From the NCBI GenBank assembly GCA_949152475.1, contig OX424568.1, positions 25,333,667 to 25,397,666 of the forward strand: a DNA stretch of 64,000 nt, given 5' to 3'. Numbering within the stretch: the stretch's first letter is position 1; every line of letters starts with the position of its first letter. Shown here one piece after another: positions 4,444 to 13,318 of this stretch. The notes beneath the pieces are model-generated. The model did no database searches. It was given only the letters and a program-made list of their open reading frames with translations, and was not told where the DNA came from. A program made the position numbers and the translations under genes. Origin of the DNA: Terebella lapidaria. Lineage: Eukaryota; Annelida; Polychaeta; Terebellida; Terebellidae.

Positions 4444-4562
4444 TTATATAGCTACCACGTGATCCACATCATGCCTACAACAAATACATATTTATATTCT
4501 ATATGTACTATAATTGTTGCTACTGTATATGGTGACATATGCCCATCTATATATTTCATACT

Positions 4563-4967
4563 AATATGTTATTATGCAGAGCATAGAGACGCAGCGAGTG
4601 GAAATGCAGATTTCTTGTATATCTCTATACATGTATTATAGTCATATTAATTATTATCATGTTAATGGGCATATATGTGTGCCGGTGTATTACTGTATCT
4701 ACATGTATATGATATAAATACACTGCAATGATGCTGATAGATCTAGGCCTAGAAGATTGCCAAAAAATATTGACTAATACTTGCAAGCGGTTGAATAAAA
4801 AAAACTGTCTGAATCAGGCTCATGGACAGTCAGTGGGCCTAGATCTATGTGTATAACAATGAAACTAAAAAAACTTTCATCATAACCAATTGTTGTTATT
4901 GTATCTACATATTCAGAAGGCTCCTTTTCCACTCGCTGCGTCCCTATGGTCTGCATAATAACATATT
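4563..4967. mobile_element. Nonautonomous TIR element (MITE), about 405 bp
   Basis: A 41-bp inverted repeat lies at 4563-4603 and 4927-4967, with two mismatches (AATATGTTATTATGCAGA at the left end; GACGCAGCGAGTGGAA at its inner edge). Between the arms there is no coding potential. No convincing target duplication was found, so the superfamily is open and the true ends may differ by a few bases. It abuts the 5' side of the intact LINE. Confidence 0.7.
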
Positions 4968-5238
4968 AATTACACTGTCATAATATACAGCTTGGTTGAA
5001 ATGAAGGGCTGAGCGTCTTATGTCGTCTCCAATCTAAGACAAATTCTGCTAGTTGTACACAACGAAAGTGAACTAAAAGTGACATGTGTCTAAATGAACA
5101 CTCTATGAATATTAATTGGATATCTACCAACCGATAGGATAGAAATAGGAGAGGGAAACTGTAAGTAATATTTTGTACATTTCGACTTCCCTGTGCGGCC
5201 ATAAAACAAACGCCATTGCCGAGGCCAGCCCAACCACC

Positions 5239-6513
5239 ATGTCCAGTGACGCGAAACGAAGTCAAAGCGCCACTGAAACAACAATAAAAGGAATTGAGAG
5301 CGTCATGCGGAATATGGGTCTACATACACTGAAGGACGATATCTCTGAAATAAAATCAACAGTAGCCAATATACAAGCACAGCAAGATGAATTGAAGAAA
5401 TCGCTACAGTTTACTCAAGATGATTACGAGAAGACTAAAACAACAGTACGAGAGCTACAGGAAAAGAACGCAAAGTTACTATCGAGAACAGAATTTTCAG
5501 AAAATAGGCTATCGGAGGTACAAAAACACTTGAAAGAAACGCACAAGAGACTCATACATGTGGAATATATGAGTATGAAAGACAAGCTTGTCTTCAGTGG
5601 AATTGCCGAACACCCCGACGAAAACACACGGTCGGTTTTGATGAGTTTCCTCAAGGATGTGCTACGTATCCCGGACTTCATGTTTTCGCTCACTCGAACA
5701 TCTCAGAGCGACCCAGCAGCAGACCTCCGACTGGATGGCGATAGCATTCCAGATGTCGTGTGGATATCTAGATGTCATCGCTTCGGTAATCCAGGTAACA
5801 AGGGTCAACCCAGACCTATCATCGCCAAATTCATCGAGGGTCGCGACAAGGTTATGTCATACTGTAAAAATCTGAAAAATACAGACTATTTTGTGTCCAG
5901 ACAAGTACCGCAAGAAATCACTGAACGAAAAAAGAAGATAGCCCCGCTCTTCAAATCAGCGAGATCGAATGGCAAACGACCGAAATACGTCGGAATGGGA
6001 GACGCAGTACTATTCGACAAAAAGGTCTTCTCTACGCCAGAAGTCCCAGTATGTTCAACGGCTGCTCCGGATATCATAGGGGCACGAGACAAACTCCATG
6101 TCAGTAGCTCTCCAGTCTTACAGGAGAAGGGAAATCGCTTCGTGGGACACGCTGCCACTGTGACTACACGCGAAGAAGCAGTAGCTGCTGTCTCGGCCAT
6201 CAAACACAGTCACCACAGCATTTCAACTGCCACACACAACATGTTCGTGGCTCGCATAGTACAAGGTTCTTCCACATTCAATATCTGCGATGACGACGGA
6301 GAATACGGAGGATCAGCAGTCATCCTGAAAGAAATGGAAGCACATAAAATACTAAACCGTGTGGTCATGGTTTCACGCTGGGCGAGCGGATATCAGCTTG
6401 GAGGGCGCAGATGGTCCATCATCAAGCAAGTAACGAACAACTGTCTGGCAGCCGCTGGACTGGTGTCACCAACTGATCTAGAAATCACAACCCCCAAGAC
6501 CGTGGAAACGTGA
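5239..6513 (+). CDS. LINE ORF1 protein: coiled coil, RRM-like, CTD and IMPACT/YigZ-like domain
   Basis: The frame opens at 5173, but MSSDAKRSQ at 5239 is the more natural start (424 residues). Numbering from 5173: residues about 45-130 are a heptad-rich coiled coil (trimerisation in L1 ORF1p). Residues about 135-300 start MKDKLVFSGIAEHPDE and include VPQEITERKKKIAPLFKSAR, matching the RRM plus C-terminal domain of L1-type ORF1 RNA chaperones (Transposase_22). Residues 319-420 are extra: KGNRFVGHAATVTTREEA, ATHNMFVARI, DDDGEYGGSAV and VMVSRWASGYQLGGRRW. These reproduce in order the landmarks of the UPF0029/IMPACT N-terminal fold (K-x-FIGHA, ATHN, DDGE-GG, VVSRW-GG-LG-RF). Known family members include IMPACT, which regulates GCN2, and bacterial YigZ. 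In a LINE it may bind RNA or ribosome-associated factors (inference). ORF1p acts with the element RNA in a cytoplasmic RNP. Confidence 0.85.
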   Translation: MSSDAKRSQSATETTIKGIESVMRNMGLHTLKDDISEIKSTVANIQAQQDELKKSLQFTQDDYEKTKTTVRELQEKNAKLLSRTEFSENRLSEVQKHLKETHKRLIHVEYMSMKDKLVFSGIAEHPDENTRSVLMSFLKDVLRIPDFMFSLTRTSQSDPAADLRLDGDSIPDVVWISRCHRFGNPGNKGQPRPIIAKFIEGRDKVMSYCKNLKNTDYFVSRQVPQEITERKKKIAPLFKSARSNGKRPKYVGMGDAVLFDKKVFSTPEVPVCSTAAPDIIGARDKLHVSSSPVLQEKGNRFVGHAATVTTREEAVAAVSAIKHSHHSISTATHNMFVARIVQGSSTFNICDDDGEYGGSAVILKEMEAHKILNRVVMVSRWASGYQLGGRRWSIIKQVTNNCLAAAGLVSPTDLEITTPKTVET

Positions 6514-6829
6514 GAAAAAATTGTATAATGAACTAAGAATCACAACTTAAATAATGAAAATATCATACTGATGTTACTAGCCTAATCGTCACAATATCAT
6601 GATTGATTATCGTATGTAATGCATAGGTATCGTAATACACATGTCATAATTTATGTTAACCGTCACATTAATCAAGCACACATATCTAACACTATATGAT
6701 GACACTATATGCTTGTCTATATTGATGTATATATATAAATATATATGGATTTGTGTACAGGTGTACGCGTATATATGTAATTTATATATATATATTATAT
6801 ATATATATGTGTGTGTGTATGTATGTGTG

Positions 6830-6872
<43 letters not shown>

Positions 6873-6893
6873 GTATGTATATATATGTGTATA

Positions 6894-6924
<31 letters not shown>

Positions 6925-7161
6925 CTGAAAGATTGGATTTAAAAAAAAAAAATAACCAATCTATATTCTTATTCGTGTGTGTTTCTTGTGTACACTAACA
7001 AAACATTTCACCCCTAATCATTCCACATGGAGACTACACTTTTGGACGCCCTGCGCACAAGCCAATACTCGCTCTCAGAACAACTGAGCACCCAGAAGTA
7101 CACGAACGGTTACATAACACTCTGAATCACATAACAGAAAGTTTTATGCACCTTCAGTGGC
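6514..7161 (+). repeat. LINE inter-ORF spacer with (TA/TG)n microsatellite
   Basis: About 200 bp (6727-6924) is an alternating purine-pyrimidine tract of TA, TG and GTAT units. The open frames across it encode only Tyr/Ile/Val/Cys repeats and are not genes. The rest of the spacer is non-coding. No ribosome re-entry or overlap signal for ORF2 is visible. Confidence 0.85.
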
Positions 7162-10100
7162 ATGTCCGCTGACCAAAATCTAACTTGTTTGTCCCTAAAT
7201 GTAAGAGGCATCAATGGTAATTTTAAACGCGCATACTTATTCAATTGGTTGCGTAAGCAGCCGTACGACATATTCCTGTTACAGGAAACACATAGCGATC
7301 CAAGAACTGTTGATGCATGGACGACGGAATGGGGCAATACGATCTTTTTCAGTCATGGCAGATCTAACAGTGGCGGTGTAGCAATACTTTTCAAAGTGAA
7401 TGCGAACATCGAAGCACAGGTTATCAGTGACATAGATTATTTTGGTCGTATACTCTGCGTTCGCGTAACACACAACGAATGCGACTTTATCATAACGAAC
7501 ATATATGCGCCCACAAAAGATCATATGGTGGAACAAATCGAGTTCCTGAATGTCCTAAACGAAGTTTTATCTGATCATATTGGGGATAACATTATAGTCG
7601 GAGGAGACTGGAATACCATCCTGGATCCAATAAATGATAAGCGGGGTGGACGTTTCGAACCGGCGGCAAGATACAGGCGCGCTATCGAACAATTAATGAA
7701 CGATTTGTCCCTGGTGGACATATGGCGAATTAACCAACCAAACGCGAGGGTATTCTCCAGAATACAGTTAATACCGAAAGTGGAGTCGAGAATAGATTTC
7801 ATGCTCATATCCGAGCACTTGATGCCAATGGCCTTCGCGACTATTTTGCCTGACAAAGTGAAGACAGATCATCGGCCGATCACCCTCTCAATAACGGACC
7901 AAAACCAGTCCAAACGCGGTCCAGGCTTCTGGAAACTTAACAGCGCGCTTTTGCAGCAAGAAGACTATACGAGAAAGGTGGAAAGTATTCTTAAAAATCT
8001 TGAGACAGAATACTTATCCATTGACAATAAAGCTCTCAAGTGGGATCTTGTAAAATGTAAAATCCGTGCATTCTCTATAATGTACAGTAAGAGCGTAGCG
8101 CGACAACGCAAGTCCTACGAAAAAGCTCTCATCAGCCAGCAACGTGAACTTTCAGAAATAATAGAAATGTACCCAGACAATACCGAGGCCCAAATGAGGC
8201 TAGACAGTGTCCAGCAAGATTTAGATCAATTGTATGAACAACAAACCGAGGGCGCCATTCTGCGATCGCGAGCCTTATGGTACGAAAACGGCGAAAAAAG
8301 TAATGCATACTTCTTTGGTCTTGAGAAACAGAGGTACAAAAATAAATGTATAACGAAACTAGTAATGGACTCTGGGGAGATTATCACAAACCCTGATGAA
8401 ATCCTAAAGTCCGAAACATCTTTCTATAAAACATTATACAGTTCATCAATTCCCAATGTCCATGACTTGGAAGCTTCAGCCGAAATGTTCTTCAACACTC
8501 AGAGTGTTCCTCAATTAACCCCAGAACAGAAGCGTGATCTTGATCAAGTTATAACGAGTGACGAATGCCTTAATGCACTGAAGTGCATGAAGAATAACAA
8601 ATCGCCTGGAACGGATGGTCTTGGGTGTGAATTCTATAAAACCTTCTGGCCATCAATAAAAACGTTTCTATTGGAAAGTTACAACTACTCTTACGAGACA
8701 GGTAAACTCTCGAACGATCAGCGAAGAGGGATAATCACCCTTACCCCCAAGAAAGATAAAGATCGAACAAAGCTGAAAAATTGGAGGCCTATAACCCTCC
8801 TAAATACGGACTATAAAATCTTAGCGAAAGTTTTGGCTAAAAGATTACAAAAAGTTCTCCCTTTTATCATCAGCCCCGATCAGACTGGATATATCAAAGG
8901 GAGGTATATCGGCGAGAACATTCGACTTATATCTGATCTCATTTTTCTGGGACAGCAAAAAAACATATCAGGCATCATGCTGTTGGTAGACTTCCAGAAA
9001 GCGTTCGATTCTCTGGAGTGGGTCTATATTGATAAAGCATTACAGACATTCGGCTTTGGTAAGCCTTTCTGCACGTGGATCAGAATACTTTATTACAATG
9101 CCGAAAGCTGCGTGATAAATAACGGTTTTGCGTCACATTTTTTTACCCTCGAAAGAAGTGTGAGACAAGGATGTCCCCTTGCTGCGTTTTTATTTATTGT
9201 GGTAATCGAGCTGTTAGCCATAGCAATAAGAAAACACGATGATGTCAAAGGCATATCGCTCCAAAATGGCATCGTCAAAATATCGCAATTCGCAGATGAC
9301 ACCACCTGTTTCGTGGAGAATGAAACATCATTGTTAAACTTGCTGAATATATTTGATAGCTTTCGAAGATGCTCGGGCTTGAAGTGTAACTTGGAAAAAA
9401 CTGAAGCGGTCTTCTTGAACAAAAGATGGAACCCAGAATTCGGTGAACTCCCTGTCCCACAAACATCATTGCCATTCACGGCCCTCGGTATTGTGCTTCA
9501 TCCAGAAGAAGACGTCATGTGCGAATATAATTGCACACCTCGTCTAAGAGCCATACAATCAACTTTAAATATGTGGGAACGACGGGATCTAACTATAATT
9601 GGTCGAAATCTCATTTTCAAGACATTAGCATTGTCAAAGATTATCTATCCAAGCACCTCCATCTACATCGCACCCTGGGTAACCAAGGAAGTCAATAAAC
9701 AAACGTCATCTTTTTTGTGGAAAAATCGTCCGGCAAAGGTTAAAGCTGAAGTCATGTATCAATCGAGAGAAAACGGGGGTTTGAGTGTGGTGGATTTCGA
9801 TCTACAAGTCAAGGCTCTACAGCTATCGTGGATACAAAGAATTCTGAAGCAGGAATCACCGTCCGCATGGCAGGTAACACTGCAATCAATGATTCCTGAT
9901 ATTAACGCTTTAGACTTTGTCAGTTCGAGGTGCAATATTAAAGGGCACCATTTGAAATTATCGCTTTTTTACCAGCAAATTTTCGGTGTGTGGAACGAGT
10001 TTCGTAAAGGCCAATATCCGAAAAATGGTCCTGACGTAAGACGGGAAATCATTTGGTTCAATGACCACATACTAATTGACAACAATCCCGTCTTTTATAA

Positions 10101-10959
10101 ATCCTGGTACAAAGCCAAAATACTATATATCAGCGATATTCTAGATACCAATGGCAAAGTATACTCTTATACGGAGCTATGTGATCTATATAGTTTCCGC
10201 CCAAATATTCTAGATTACTATGGCATTATCAATGCTATTCCAAGAGAATGGAAAACATGTATATTGCAGAGTGGTTGCATAGACTCGAATAAAAATATAA
10301 CAGTATACATGCCGGACGGCAACAAACGTCACTTCGAAGTCATGTGTACTCGGGATAGATACCGCGTGTTTTCCTCTGTTCGACACAAAGCCAAGCCAGC
10401 AGCTATAAGAAAATGGTCGGAACGTTTCAACGTTGCGCCAAATGATTTGAATTGGATAAACATTTTCTCCCGACCATATCTGGTGACTCACAACACCAAG
10501 CTGCTCGCATTTCAATTTAAATTTCTACACAGAATAGTGCCAAACAACTACTCACTGCATATCATGAGCATTGTAGATGACAACACTTGCCGAAACTGTG
10601 GGGGCATTGAGACGATCGAACATCTCTTTTATGACTGCCCATATGTGATAAGGTTTTTAGACGCACTTGGAAATTGGTTCAATTCTATACACTCAACCAC
10701 CTTCTTACTAACTAAAACAGTTGTATTTTTCGGCCTAGCAGATGATTGTAACGCCAGCACCGCAACCTTTAATCACGTTCTCTTATTCGCGAAGTACTAC
10801 GTCCACCGAAATCATATTAACAAAACAGCACCTTGTTTGTCACATTTTAAACACGCACTGAGAAAGCTACTGAAAATAGAATATTTCAATGCTGTCAACA
10901 GAACACAGAAAGTGCGCTTCATGGAAATTTGGGGAAAATTGTATTTTGAGATCGACTGA
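7162..10959 (+). CDS. LINE ORF2 polyprotein: endonuclease and reverse transcriptase
   Basis: This is a 1265-residue open frame. The N-terminal APE endonuclease (residues about 5-235) has LNVRGINGN, LLQETHSD, GGDWNTILD, SRIDFMLIS and TDHRPI, covering the Asn, Glu, Asp and His active-site positions; it would nick the target DNA. The reverse transcriptase (about 440-780) has GTDGLGCEFY, NWRPITLLNTDYKILAK, LVDFQKAFDSLEW (Asp 610) and QFADDTTCF (Asp 712 and 713), then GLKCNLEKTEAVFL. The C-terminal region ends with a Cys/His knuckle starting at Cys 1143 (CRNCGGIETIEHLFYDC), as in L1 and Tx1 ORF2. The start at 7162 directly precedes the endonuclease fold and the length is usual for the clade. No stop or missing catalytic residue was seen. 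It copies the element by target-primed reverse transcription. Confidence 0.95.
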   Translation: MSADQNLTCLSLNVRGINGNFKRAYLFNWLRKQPYDIFLLQETHSDPRTVDAWTTEWGNTIFFSHGRSNSGGVAILFKVNANIEAQVISDIDYFGRILCVRVTHNECDFIITNIYAPTKDHMVEQIEFLNVLNEVLSDHIGDNIIVGGDWNTILDPINDKRGGRFEPAARYRRAIEQLMNDLSLVDIWRINQPNARVFSRIQLIPKVESRIDFMLISEHLMPMAFATILPDKVKTDHRPITLSITDQNQSKRGPGFWKLNSALLQQEDYTRKVESILKNLETEYLSIDNKALKWDLVKCKIRAFSIMYSKSVARQRKSYEKALISQQRELSEIIEMYPDNTEAQMRLDSVQQDLDQLYEQQTEGAILRSRALWYENGEKSNAYFFGLEKQRYKNKCITKLVMDSGEIITNPDEILKSETSFYKTLYSSSIPNVHDLEASAEMFFNTQSVPQLTPEQKRDLDQVITSDECLNALKCMKNNKSPGTDGLGCEFYKTFWPSIKTFLLESYNYSYETGKLSNDQRRGIITLTPKKDKDRTKLKNWRPITLLNTDYKILAKVLAKRLQKVLPFIISPDQTGYIKGRYIGENIRLISDLIFLGQQKNISGIMLLVDFQKAFDSLEWVYIDKALQTFGFGKPFCTWIRILYYNAESCVINNGFASHFFTLERSVRQGCPLAAFLFIVVIELLAIAIRKHDDVKGISLQNGIVKISQFADDTTCFVENETSLLNLLNIFDSFRRCSGLKCNLEKTEAVFLNKRWNPEFGELPVPQTSLPFTALGIVLHPEEDVMCEYNCTPRLRAIQSTLNMWERRDLTIIGRNLIFKTLALSKIIYPSTSIYIAPWVTKEVNKQTSSFLWKNRPAKVKAEVMYQSRENGGLSVVDFDLQVKALQLSWIQRILKQESPSAWQVTLQSMIPDINALDFVSSRCNIKGHHLKLSLFYQQIFGVWNEFRKGQYPKNGPDVRREIIWFNDHILIDNNPVFYKSWYKAKILYISDILDTNGKVYSYTELCDLYSFRPNILDYYGIINAIPREWKTCILQSGCIDSNKNITVYMPDGNKRHFEVMCTRDRYRVFSSVRHKAKPAAIRKWSERFNVAPNDLNWINIFSRPYLVTHNTKLLAFQFKFLHRIVPNNYSLHIMSIVDDNTCRNCGGIETIEHLFYDCPYVIRFLDALGNWFNSIHSTTFLLTKTVVFFGLADDCNASTATFNHVLLFAKYYVHRNHINKTAPCLSHFKHALRKLLKIEYFNAVNRTQKVRFMEIWGKLYFEID

Positions 10960-11040
10960 TCATTTTTGTAGTTACCATTTGTTTATGTAACCTAGTGTAC
11001 GAATTTTTGTACGTAAGCACGAAACTGTTGAATAAAATTA

Positions 11041-11080
<40 letters not shown>

Positions 11081-11081
<1 letters not shown>

Positions 11082-13318
11082 ATTAATATGAAGGTGTGTT
11101 AAATGCTTTGAACATCCCAAAATGTAGACGAATTTAGGACACATGGCTCGCATGTAGAATTGCTGATAATCAACTCACTGATTCAGCAGCACTGTAACCT
11201 CCATTAAGACGCGGTGAGAACGAACGGGTTGATAGCTGTAACCTCAAGATGCAACAGTTACTATAGGAGATTAAATGGGAGTCAAATTACTCGAGACTTC
11301 TGACATGAGGTTTGATAGGTAAGAAAGGTAACCCATTATGGGCGAAATTTGTCCCTCTAGATAATCAATATAATGATTGAGTTTATGAGTAACACAAAAT
11401 CATAAATGCAGAAATTTCATCATGACCACTGTTATTTCTGAACCTGACAACTCACTATAAGAAACTACCTGGGAATAGATATTGCCCAAGACTAACTGCA
11501 TGAGATTCAATGGATATTATGTGACTAGAATTTCATGAGCGAAATACACTTAAAACGGTAATTACAGCTGTATCACATAATGAAGTTCTTTAGTTGATTT
11601 AAAAAAAATAAAATTTTCATAACCGTTTTTATAGGAAACTAACTTCTGTGAACTGTGATAATCAACGATAAGAATATATCAGTAACACAAAGTGATGAAG
11701 GCAGATACAGACAACCCCATACTTGTTGTGTTGTGAATAAACTTTCCAACAAAAAACTTTCTTTCATAACCAATTGTCATATTTATATCCAACCACTAAC
11801 TATAGAGGAATAACTGAGATCAAAATTGCCATGGGGATTCATCTGATGACCTGCCTATTCAAGACAACAGATCAAGAGAATAAATCTATTCGAGCCAACA
11901 ATATGCCTATGTAGTGTCAAGCACCACATACCCACACAGGAACATTAAGAACGAATGAAATTATGAGCAATGGCAGTGCTGCGGATCACACCAAACAGTG
12001 ATTTTACTGCACAATATTGTGGAAACAATGCCTACTGGTTGACTATTCAATTTGAAGGTGTGAAAGTGTGGGTCACACTGAACATACCTCTGCATAACAT
12101 TGAATCTGTAAAATCGTGGTTATAGCATATTATTATTTCATTAATATCATGTATACAATGGACAAATTTTATCGTCATTATTATTTGTTACTATTACATA
12201 TTGCATGTATCAAACAGAATAATTTCACTCTGATATATTCATCACTTGTCAATATATCAGAGTGGTTGAATGTGTAGAGATACAAAATTATGTCAGTAAA
12301 ATTTTGACAGCGCATATCTTTTTGTTGTTATCCATGTTATCGGTCTGGCTTCCTATTGTGACAATAAAATTGAGTGAAATACTGACCGAAGTCTTTTTTA
12401 TTTGATCAACAAAGAACACGGTTTCATGTACAATAACCTATACTGAACAAAATAATATAAACGAAAAAATAAGCCTATTTGACATGAGGAGGTTATATTT
12501 TGTCCAGCATGTTCACTGTACAACTCGGCATGAATGGAATTACTTTTAAAGTAATGGGTGTTTAATTTTCTTCCCTCTACTAGAATAACTGTGTGTATGT
12601 CAGGCTCCAGTCTTTTGTGGATATCAAAAAGTTTCTGATGCATTCAAATAAATCTGTTAACATATGGAAAATACCTATAGCCGTGGTAAGGATAAAATAT
12701 GTATATATTTCTTGCTTAAATGTTCAACAAGTGAATTCATTAATAAGCAAAGATATGTCATTGTACCAGTTCAATATTTGGAAGAAAATAATGTTGGGCA
12801 ATATTTAATTTTTTTCTGTGCTTGCAAGCATTAATTTGAACGAAAATTGCATAATTTGAACTATTCACCATCCAGCATCAGGCATTCAAAAGTCCTTTGC
12901 GTTTTGGAACATAAGGCGCCAAAGTTCTAGAAGATACGCACGAATACGGCATAACTCACTATCATATACTCGTATACAGTAGTGAGCATACTGATTCATG
13001 TATGCATGTTCGCGTGACAGAAATCTACTTTTTTCTAGAGTATCCTGCTTGCGTGAAATTACGGTACCGGGCGGCCGTGCAATGCAATAACCAATTAAGG
13101 AACGCTCGTGAAACCATATTGCGAAACGGTGCTTCGCAAAAAAAAAAAATCACTGAGCGGTGAAATTCGCTCCCAGATCGCTAGGGGTTTCCTGTCTAAA
13201 AAAACTTCCGGTCAAAATTCGCAGAGATGAAAATTGTGATCATAGTAGCTGGGACTATCTTTAGATTCTGCTGCTCTCAGTGCTTTGGTGTTATTTTCTC
13301 GGACATGCAATACCATTA
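11081..13318. other. Non-coding stretch
   Basis: I see no gene. Open frames here are short and AT-driven. One clear hairpin lies at 12226-12264 (stem CACTCTGATATATT, loop of about 10 nt). A poly(A) run of about 12 lies at 13138. Confidence 0.6.

Follow-up and report, generated by a model that had tools for sequence, protein, structure and literature searches.

An L1-type LINE of the annelid Terebella lapidaria carries, at the end of its ORF1 protein, a complete UPF0029 domain of the IMPACT type, and the same domain recurs in ORF1 of many related elements of this genome. We propose that an IMPACT-type UPF0029 was captured by ORF1, is kept there by selection and would dock LINE particles onto RNA or onto the translation machinery; to this explanation as a whole we assign a probability of about 0.5. 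The identity and the conservation of the domain are nearly certain, and the docking role is advanced with more reserve. The findings on UPF0029-bearing LINEs cover one genome and were made at the level of sequence.

The window, by which we mean the whole stretch of 64,000 nucleotides that was analysed, contains an intact LINE of the L1 superfamily, 6.1 kb in length, at 4971-11080 on the plus strand. The ORF1 and ORF2 frames are both open. The features of the element are as follows.

4971..11080, +: whole LINE insertion (L1 superfamily), from 5' UTR to poly(A), 6.1 kb, by empty-site comparison
4965-4970 and 11082-11087: target-site duplication of at least 6 bases, ATTAAT, by the empty sites L085 and L086
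5239..6513, +: ORF1, 424 aa, ATG to TGA, from the sequence
5320..5577, +: ORF1 coiled coil, one helix, residues 28-113, by AlphaFold secondary structure (block pLDDT 83-94 from residue 31)
5578..6093, +: L1-type RRM and CTD, about residues 114-285, by Foldseek against 2ykp, 2yko and 2ykq, the bounds being our reading
6130..6447, +: UPF0029/IMPACT domain, residues 298-403, by PF01205 and Foldseek
6514..7161, +: ORF1-ORF2 spacer, 648 bases, with a long TA/TG-rich simple repeat, from the sequence
7162..10959, +: ORF2, 1265 aa, by its open frame and its match to human L1 ORF2p 8sxt
7189..7815, +: endonuclease (Exo_endo_phos), ORF2 residues 10-218, PF03372 E 1.5e-15
8746..9492, +: reverse transcriptase, ORF2 residues 529-777, PF00078 E 6.7e-33
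11042..11080, +: 3' poly(A) tail, 39 A, from the sequence

The element was assigned to the L1 superfamily because the match of its ORF2 to human L1 ORF2p (8sxt; E 6.3e-108, residues 4-888) far exceeds the best match to R2 (E 3.6e-23). Its ends were defined by the surrounding repeat without the LINE: the empty sites L085 and L086 join position 4970 of the 5' flank to position 11088 of the 3' flank, and C3:20389352-20392009 is an example of a place with both flanks and no LINE. Besides the duplication, the insertion junction shows a C at 11081, and two bases of the flank differ there. The sequence around the LINE (4558-4970 and 11074-13300) is another multicopy repeat in which the element is nested; in a search for this repeat, in which the 40 best of 313 candidates were scored, the main rows were 94-98% alike. 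Inverted ends of about 70 bases were seen within the 412 bases 5' of the LINE. As to the spacer, the next frame in the related loci L013, L019, L020 and L028 begins about 30-230 bases past ORF1 when frames are taken from stop to stop, compared to the 648 bases in the window.

The initial annotation had read ORF1 as an L1-type protein fused to a UPF0029/IMPACT domain. Its landmarks, RFVGHA, ATHN, DDDGE-GG and VSRWASGYQLGGRRW, are all present in the ORF1 frame, and the Pfam profile PF01205 matched residues 298-403 with an E value of 4.9e-18 and 65.5 bits against a cut-off of 27. Since the match spans positions 2-107 of the 107 in the profile, the domain is complete. The nucleotide coordinates first given were correct, with the Pfam match running 15 bases further, from 6432 to 6447; the residue numbers 319-420 had been counted from a TTG at 5173 (446 aa) and correspond to 297-398 when counted from the ATG. 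The fold of the domain is that of YigZ (1vi7) and TTHA1053 (2cve), but its score with the YigZ family profile TIGR00257 of NCBIfam, 27.3 bits over positions 18-110 of 205, is below the cut-off of 167.95, and the UPF0029 part alone is nearer in sequence to Yih1 (PDB 6bqi; E 4.1e-10) than to TTHA1053 (E 0.028). Judged by sequence, the domain is of the eukaryotic IMPACT type and closer to Yih1 than to the bacterial relative. Neither the L1 ORF1 model PF02994 in the window nor an RWD in its ORF1 appeared among the 25 of 26 Pfam families listed at E ≤ 1. The InterPro name of the UPF0029 domain is 'Impact, N-terminal', and automatic labels on such proteins may exist.

The structure of the whole ORF1 protein was predicted with AlphaFold from an alignment of 21 ORF1s and ORF1 pieces, all from this genome. 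The model had a mean pLDDT of 82.2 and a pTM of 0.56. When it was compared with the PDB by Foldseek, 13 matches at E ≤ 1e-3 were obtained, three to proteins of the Yih1/YigZ fold and ten to chains of human LINE-1 ORF1p. Yih1 (6bqi) ranked first with an E value of 2.5e-7, with TTHA1053 (2cve) at 1.7e-5 and YigZ (1vi7) at 2.8e-4; the human ORF1p structures 2ykp, 2yko and 2ykq gave 3.5e-6 to 2.5e-5, and 2ldy was also matched. Because ten human ORF1p chains were found, the assignment of the coiled coil, RRM and CTD is supported by the fold, and the resemblance of a single model to both Yih1/YigZ and ORF1p provides direct support for the fusion. The unbroken frame reported at the outset, with no stop or splice site after these three parts, was confirmed: the ORF1 frame is free of stops and an intron is not required. 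For a related element of a different arrangement, L009 (PHD-UPF0029-SGNH), the model was poor (mean pLDDT 48) and was left out of the fold comparison.

When this genome (761.6 Mb) was searched with PF01205, 381 candidates were obtained, of which 150 were scored. All 150 were above the cut-off, and by our count from the listing 140 of them have no stop within the UPF0029 match. From the two sets of loci described next, 36 near full-length domains, that of the window included, fell into 24 clusters at 80% identity. Twenty loci of 9.9 kb were taken from the top 27 PF01205 rows, a non-random sample; reverse transcriptase profile matches were present in all 20 and were located 3' of UPF0029 in 19, L010 having an upstream fragment only. 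Another 20 shorter ORF1 loci were chosen after a search with the window ORF1, and ORF2 was read in few of these.

Three groups were distinguished by the arrangement of ORF1. Group A has the order coiled coil-RRM-CTD-UPF0029 and consists of the window element with its relatives, together with L020, L021, L023, L026, L027, L028, L068 and L075. In group B the order is PHD-UPF0029-SGNH (L009, L024) or UPF0029-SGNH with PHD weak or unseen (L010, L011, L012, L015, L017); L016 and L025 were placed here by reverse transcriptase profile or by the trees, and the open frame of L025 showed no SGNH. Group C comprises SGNH-UPF0029 (L014, L018, L019) and PHD-SGNH-UPF0029 (L013, L022). By their ORF1 domains, groups B and C are like the CR1/L2 LINEs with PHD and esterase in ORF1, sharing SGNH and in several cases PHD, and differ from them in carrying UPF0029 either before or after the esterase. 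The PHD matches of L009, L024, L013 and L022 are above their own cut-off in L024 only, and SGNH (PF13472) was matched in 12 loci with E values from 1.3e-5 to 6.4e-9, seven of which pass the cut-off of PF13472 or PF00657. A decayed LINE in L049 (5801-7501) has SGNH, by Pfam, and UPF0029, after which a CCHC-like segment and the beginning of an endonuclease can be made out by eye. A degenerate second copy of UPF0029 upstream in L012 had no Pfam match at E ≤ 0.01; it was treated as drift of our own profile and was omitted from the trees, the signature count and the clustering of the 36 domains.

The initial annotation had left room for the domain to be lacking in every other copy of this LINE. The similarity search with the window ORF1, in which 99 of 684 candidates were scored, identified six further loci at least 60% identical to it (C4:25.99M, C14:18.66M, C5:42.36M, C1:44.24M, C4:27.73M and C12:14.68M), and all six hold at least part of the domain. 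Stops interrupt four of these near copies, and the other two are short fragments with an open frame. Three more loci of this search, L059, L060 and L061, were examined because they had no listed UPF0029 neighbour: UPF0029 pieces are spread over three frames in L060, and the domain profile finds no UPF0029 in L059 and L061, which are broken or cut loci.

A separate host IMPACT gene, with RWD and UPF0029, was not found by RWD, Yih1 or approximate human IMPACT queries among the best candidates, which were the ones scored. The RWD search of the genome gave seven matches, and the six examined were by our reading RNF14-, RWDD- or GCN2-type RWDs or unclear. Three places considered as host IMPACT exons (C12:25825576, C15:21982260 and C12:18939708) were rejected as decayed LINE copies, and L058, L062 and L063, partial candidates for a host gene, match our LINE domain profile. 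In L057 (C1:36063655-36063999, minus strand) the RWD match lies within one uninterrupted frame of 1722 aa that we read as GCN2-like; it is possibly an intronless gene or a retrocopy. The apparent fusion could in principle be an artefact in which a host IMPACT gene, a pseudogene or an assembly join stands beside the LINE. This is contradicted by the one unbroken frame, the clean empty sites and the 24 domain clusters in ORF1-type frames, and we rule it out as having practically no probability.

The UPF0029-bearing elements differ in their ORF2. In the reverse transcriptase tree, the window and L084 are separate from every other row with support of 100/100, and the ORF2 of L028 matched human L1 ORF2p with an E value of only 1e-16 over about 320 aa. 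On these two grounds, one kind of UPF0029-bearing ORF1 occurs together with ORF2s of two lineages, A1 and A2. The ORF2 of L013 is not L1-like, since its match to R2 (E 3.5e-12) is better than that to L1 (E 3e-9). UPF0029 does not represent a single fusion; it is a module that occurs in no fewer than three arrangements of ORF1 and accompanies ORF2s of two lineages.

The tree of the domains themselves groups them by arrangement, with support of 99/97 for A1, 97/98 for B and 97/95 for B and C together. The domains of A1 are 0.27-0.42 identical to those of A2, and those of B are 0.41-0.56 identical to those of C. Near full-length matches of the LINE domains to Yih1 reach 42% identity over 114 aa, and the best 25 rows against an approximate human IMPACT sequence are 38-48% identical. 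The split between LINE and cellular domains has support of 65/78 only, with three cellular rows, one of them from an approximate sequence. As far as this tree goes, the sequences would be compatible with one capture or with several. A virus contig search with L019 as the query returned three loci with 18 matched residues each, and the same search with L028 returned none. In the unrooted ORF1 tree, A1, A2 and the NADAR-bearing ORF1s described below are each set apart by a branch. Three groups in a tree without a root do not reveal which two are closest, and hence no claim is based on ORF1 exchange; horizontal acquisition of ORF1 and its shuffling among LINEs are discussed in PMC4120745.

The conservation of ORF1 was compared part by part among nine window-type families. 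Mean pairwise amino acid identity is 0.538 for UPF0029, 0.490 for RRM, 0.446 for CTD and 0.385 for the coiled coil, so that in the window's group no other part of ORF1 is as well conserved as UPF0029. Eighteen columns are kept in at least 90% of the 36 LINE domains: F, A-T-H, R, D-D-G-E, R-W, G and R belong to this near-invariant set. Yih1 is identical at 17 of the 18, whereas over the full alignment it agrees with the LINE consensus in 46 of 115 columns, and TTHA1053 has the same residue in 13 of the 15 that could be aligned. The window domain itself deviates at two of the 18, V337 and W392.

dN/dS was estimated by NG86 for pairs at least 55% identical, as the IQ-TREE codon-model trees, with lengths of 16 to 45.5, are saturated. 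In most pairs dS was uncountable (-1) and these were excluded; in all pairs with positive dS, dN/dS is below 1. The ratio is 0.06-0.07 in four pairs (L009 or L010 with L011 or L015), 0.14 for L012/L025 and L033/L042, and 0.20 for L012/L016. Values between about 0.3 and 0.62, based on few changes, were obtained for the remaining close pairs, 0.62 being that of L016/L025, and L020/L023 and L021/L023 have a dN of 0.0075 with a dS of 0, that is, two amino acid changes and none silent. UPF0029 is maintained in LINE ORF1 by selection.

A domain under selection could still be no more than a folded cap, serving to stabilise ORF1p or to set the spacing of the trimer, and bind no ligand. Its position would suit such a part, as it lies at the C-terminal end of the aligned L1-type ORF1s and on either side of the esterase elsewhere. 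The near-invariant residues, however, include the polar ATH, DDGE and RW, nearly all as in Yih1, and the domain is used in unlike scaffolds, so a cap seems improbable to us.

The initial annotation had suggested instead an IMPACT-like action, in which the domain would dampen the stress response that runs through GCN1 and GCN2. IMPACT and Yih1 are known to inhibit GCN2 and to associate with ribosomes (PMC7140605), and the host genome has a GCN2-like RWD, L057 by our reading. It is the N-terminal RWD, however, through which Yih1 and IMPACT compete for Gcn1, and in yeast overexpression of the RWD by itself is enough to inhibit the pathway (PMC7140605); within the RWD, Asp-102 and Glu-106 matter for Gcn1 binding (PMC4503747). 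Because ORF1 has the ancient domain but no RWD was found in it among the 25 of 26 families listed, action through GCN1 is unlikely, and we give the stress-response reading little credence.

We favor a role for UPF0029 in docking. Since the signature residues of Yih1 and of the bacterial relative are kept, the conserved cellular ligand is most likely still bound. In the proposed mechanism, ORF1p would coat the LINE RNA through its RRM and CTD, or be seated at a membrane through its esterase, and UPF0029 would attach the particle either to RNA or to ribosomes engaged in translation. The association of Yih1 and IMPACT with ribosomes (PMC7140605) speaks for such a role. Docking of this kind would favor the packaging of LINE RNA at its site of translation, and with the RWD missing it would be independent of GCN1. 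The function of the ancient domain is called unknown or elusive in the accessible parts of PMC7140605 and PMC4503747, and its invariant motifs common to YigZ are described there as clustering on one side. The piece of Yih1 that is linked to ribosome binding overlaps the linker and is not the ancient domain alone (PMC4503747). From the sequences at hand, docking is perhaps the role of UPF0029, at a chance that we would put somewhat short of even.

The C-terminal position of ORF1 is occupied by another domain in other elements. Ten L1-type loci were picked by eye for having no listed UPF0029 neighbour, and four of the ten have a C-terminal NADAR (PF08719, E 3e-30 to 7e-33). These are L067 (C14:26.95M), L069 (C2:38.51M), L071 (C13:6.27M) and L076 (C8:35.39M), which form three families as L067 and L076 belong to one. 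Among the rest, L068 and L075 carry UPF0029 and L072 carries a remnant of it; L073 and L074 are incomplete, and no family was matched in L070. The genome has 973 NADAR candidates, and all 150 that were scored pass the cut-off. The reverse transcriptase of the NADAR family L082 pairs with that of the UPF0029-bearing L026 (92/95); the ORF2 of L082, the one NADAR family in which ORF2 was read, is unlike the L1-type ORF2 of the window, so L082 may not be Tx1. NADAR has been reported in ORF1 of Tx1 LINEs of Crassostrea gigas and in Gypsy elements of Ectocarpus (PMC12477816). The C. gigas ORF1 likewise has a cellular domain added, although the domain differs, and this precedent makes cellular domains in LINE ORF1 known in kind.

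The NADAR elements bear on yet another possibility, that UPF0029 is an enzyme-like or ligand-clearing module directed at host defence or at chemical marks on RNA, as NADAR might be. NADAR holds the same C-terminal place in some L1-type ORF1s of the same genome; one NADAR ORF1 passed the cut-off of the TIGR02464 N-glycosidase family of NCBIfam (105 bits) and, at 38 bits, fell far below the 240 set for an anti-phage NADAR family, and the near-invariant residues of UPF0029 could, by eye, form a polar site. The same place does not equal the same task, however, and the accessible parts of PMC7140605 and PMC4503747 describe no activity for UPF0029. We regard an enzymatic or clearing role as rather unlikely. 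More tentatively than for docking itself, we suggest that the end of the L1-type ORF1 may be an exchange slot, filled by UPF0029 or by NADAR, and that UPF0029, found with two ORF2 lineages, may have been taken repeatedly as a hold on RNA or on the translating ribosome.

The LINE protein may be compared with the systems that it resembles. It has the same UPF0029 signature as IMPACT and Yih1 (PF05773 RWD plus PF01205), and differs from them in having no detected RWD, in being fused to ORF1 domains and in being multicopy and mobile. In its ORF1 fold and ORF2 it is like human L1 and the L1/Tx1 LINEs with a type II ORF1, to which the window element adds the C-terminal UPF0029. The initial annotation knew of no description of such a fusion, and our literature search likewise found none, most subscription papers being outside its reach. 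Two papers that name UPF0029 together with transposition had, by their listings, no connection with retroelements. Among 448 ORF1s of the Jockey superfamily, which is not L1, the part of PMC4120745 available tabulates only PHD, RRM, CCHC, Tnp22, esterase, coiled coil and zf/lz. UPF0029 is not mentioned in the accessible parts of PMC10294476, PMC3905857, PMC5408684, PMC11203168 and PMC9115989, the term itself having been looked up in PMC3905857, PMC5408684 and PMC9115989, and neither 'UPF0029' nor 'IMPACT domain' occurs in the text of PMC12477816 that was accessible.

The recurrent and conserved UPF0029 in LINE ORF1 is real, and it is of a kind already known, namely domain capture by ORF1. Its presence across unlike ORF1s and two ORF2 lineages widens the list of known ORF1 modules. 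UPF0029 is better conserved than the adjacent RNA-binding part, which points to a step in retrotransposition that is absent from current models. For the IMPACT/YigZ family, these LINEs supply two dozen naturally occurring versions of the ancient domain that are subject to selection, in a system where retrotransposition can be read out quantitatively. If the end of ORF1 is indeed an exchange slot, these LINEs would be a natural test system for the ligand of the family.
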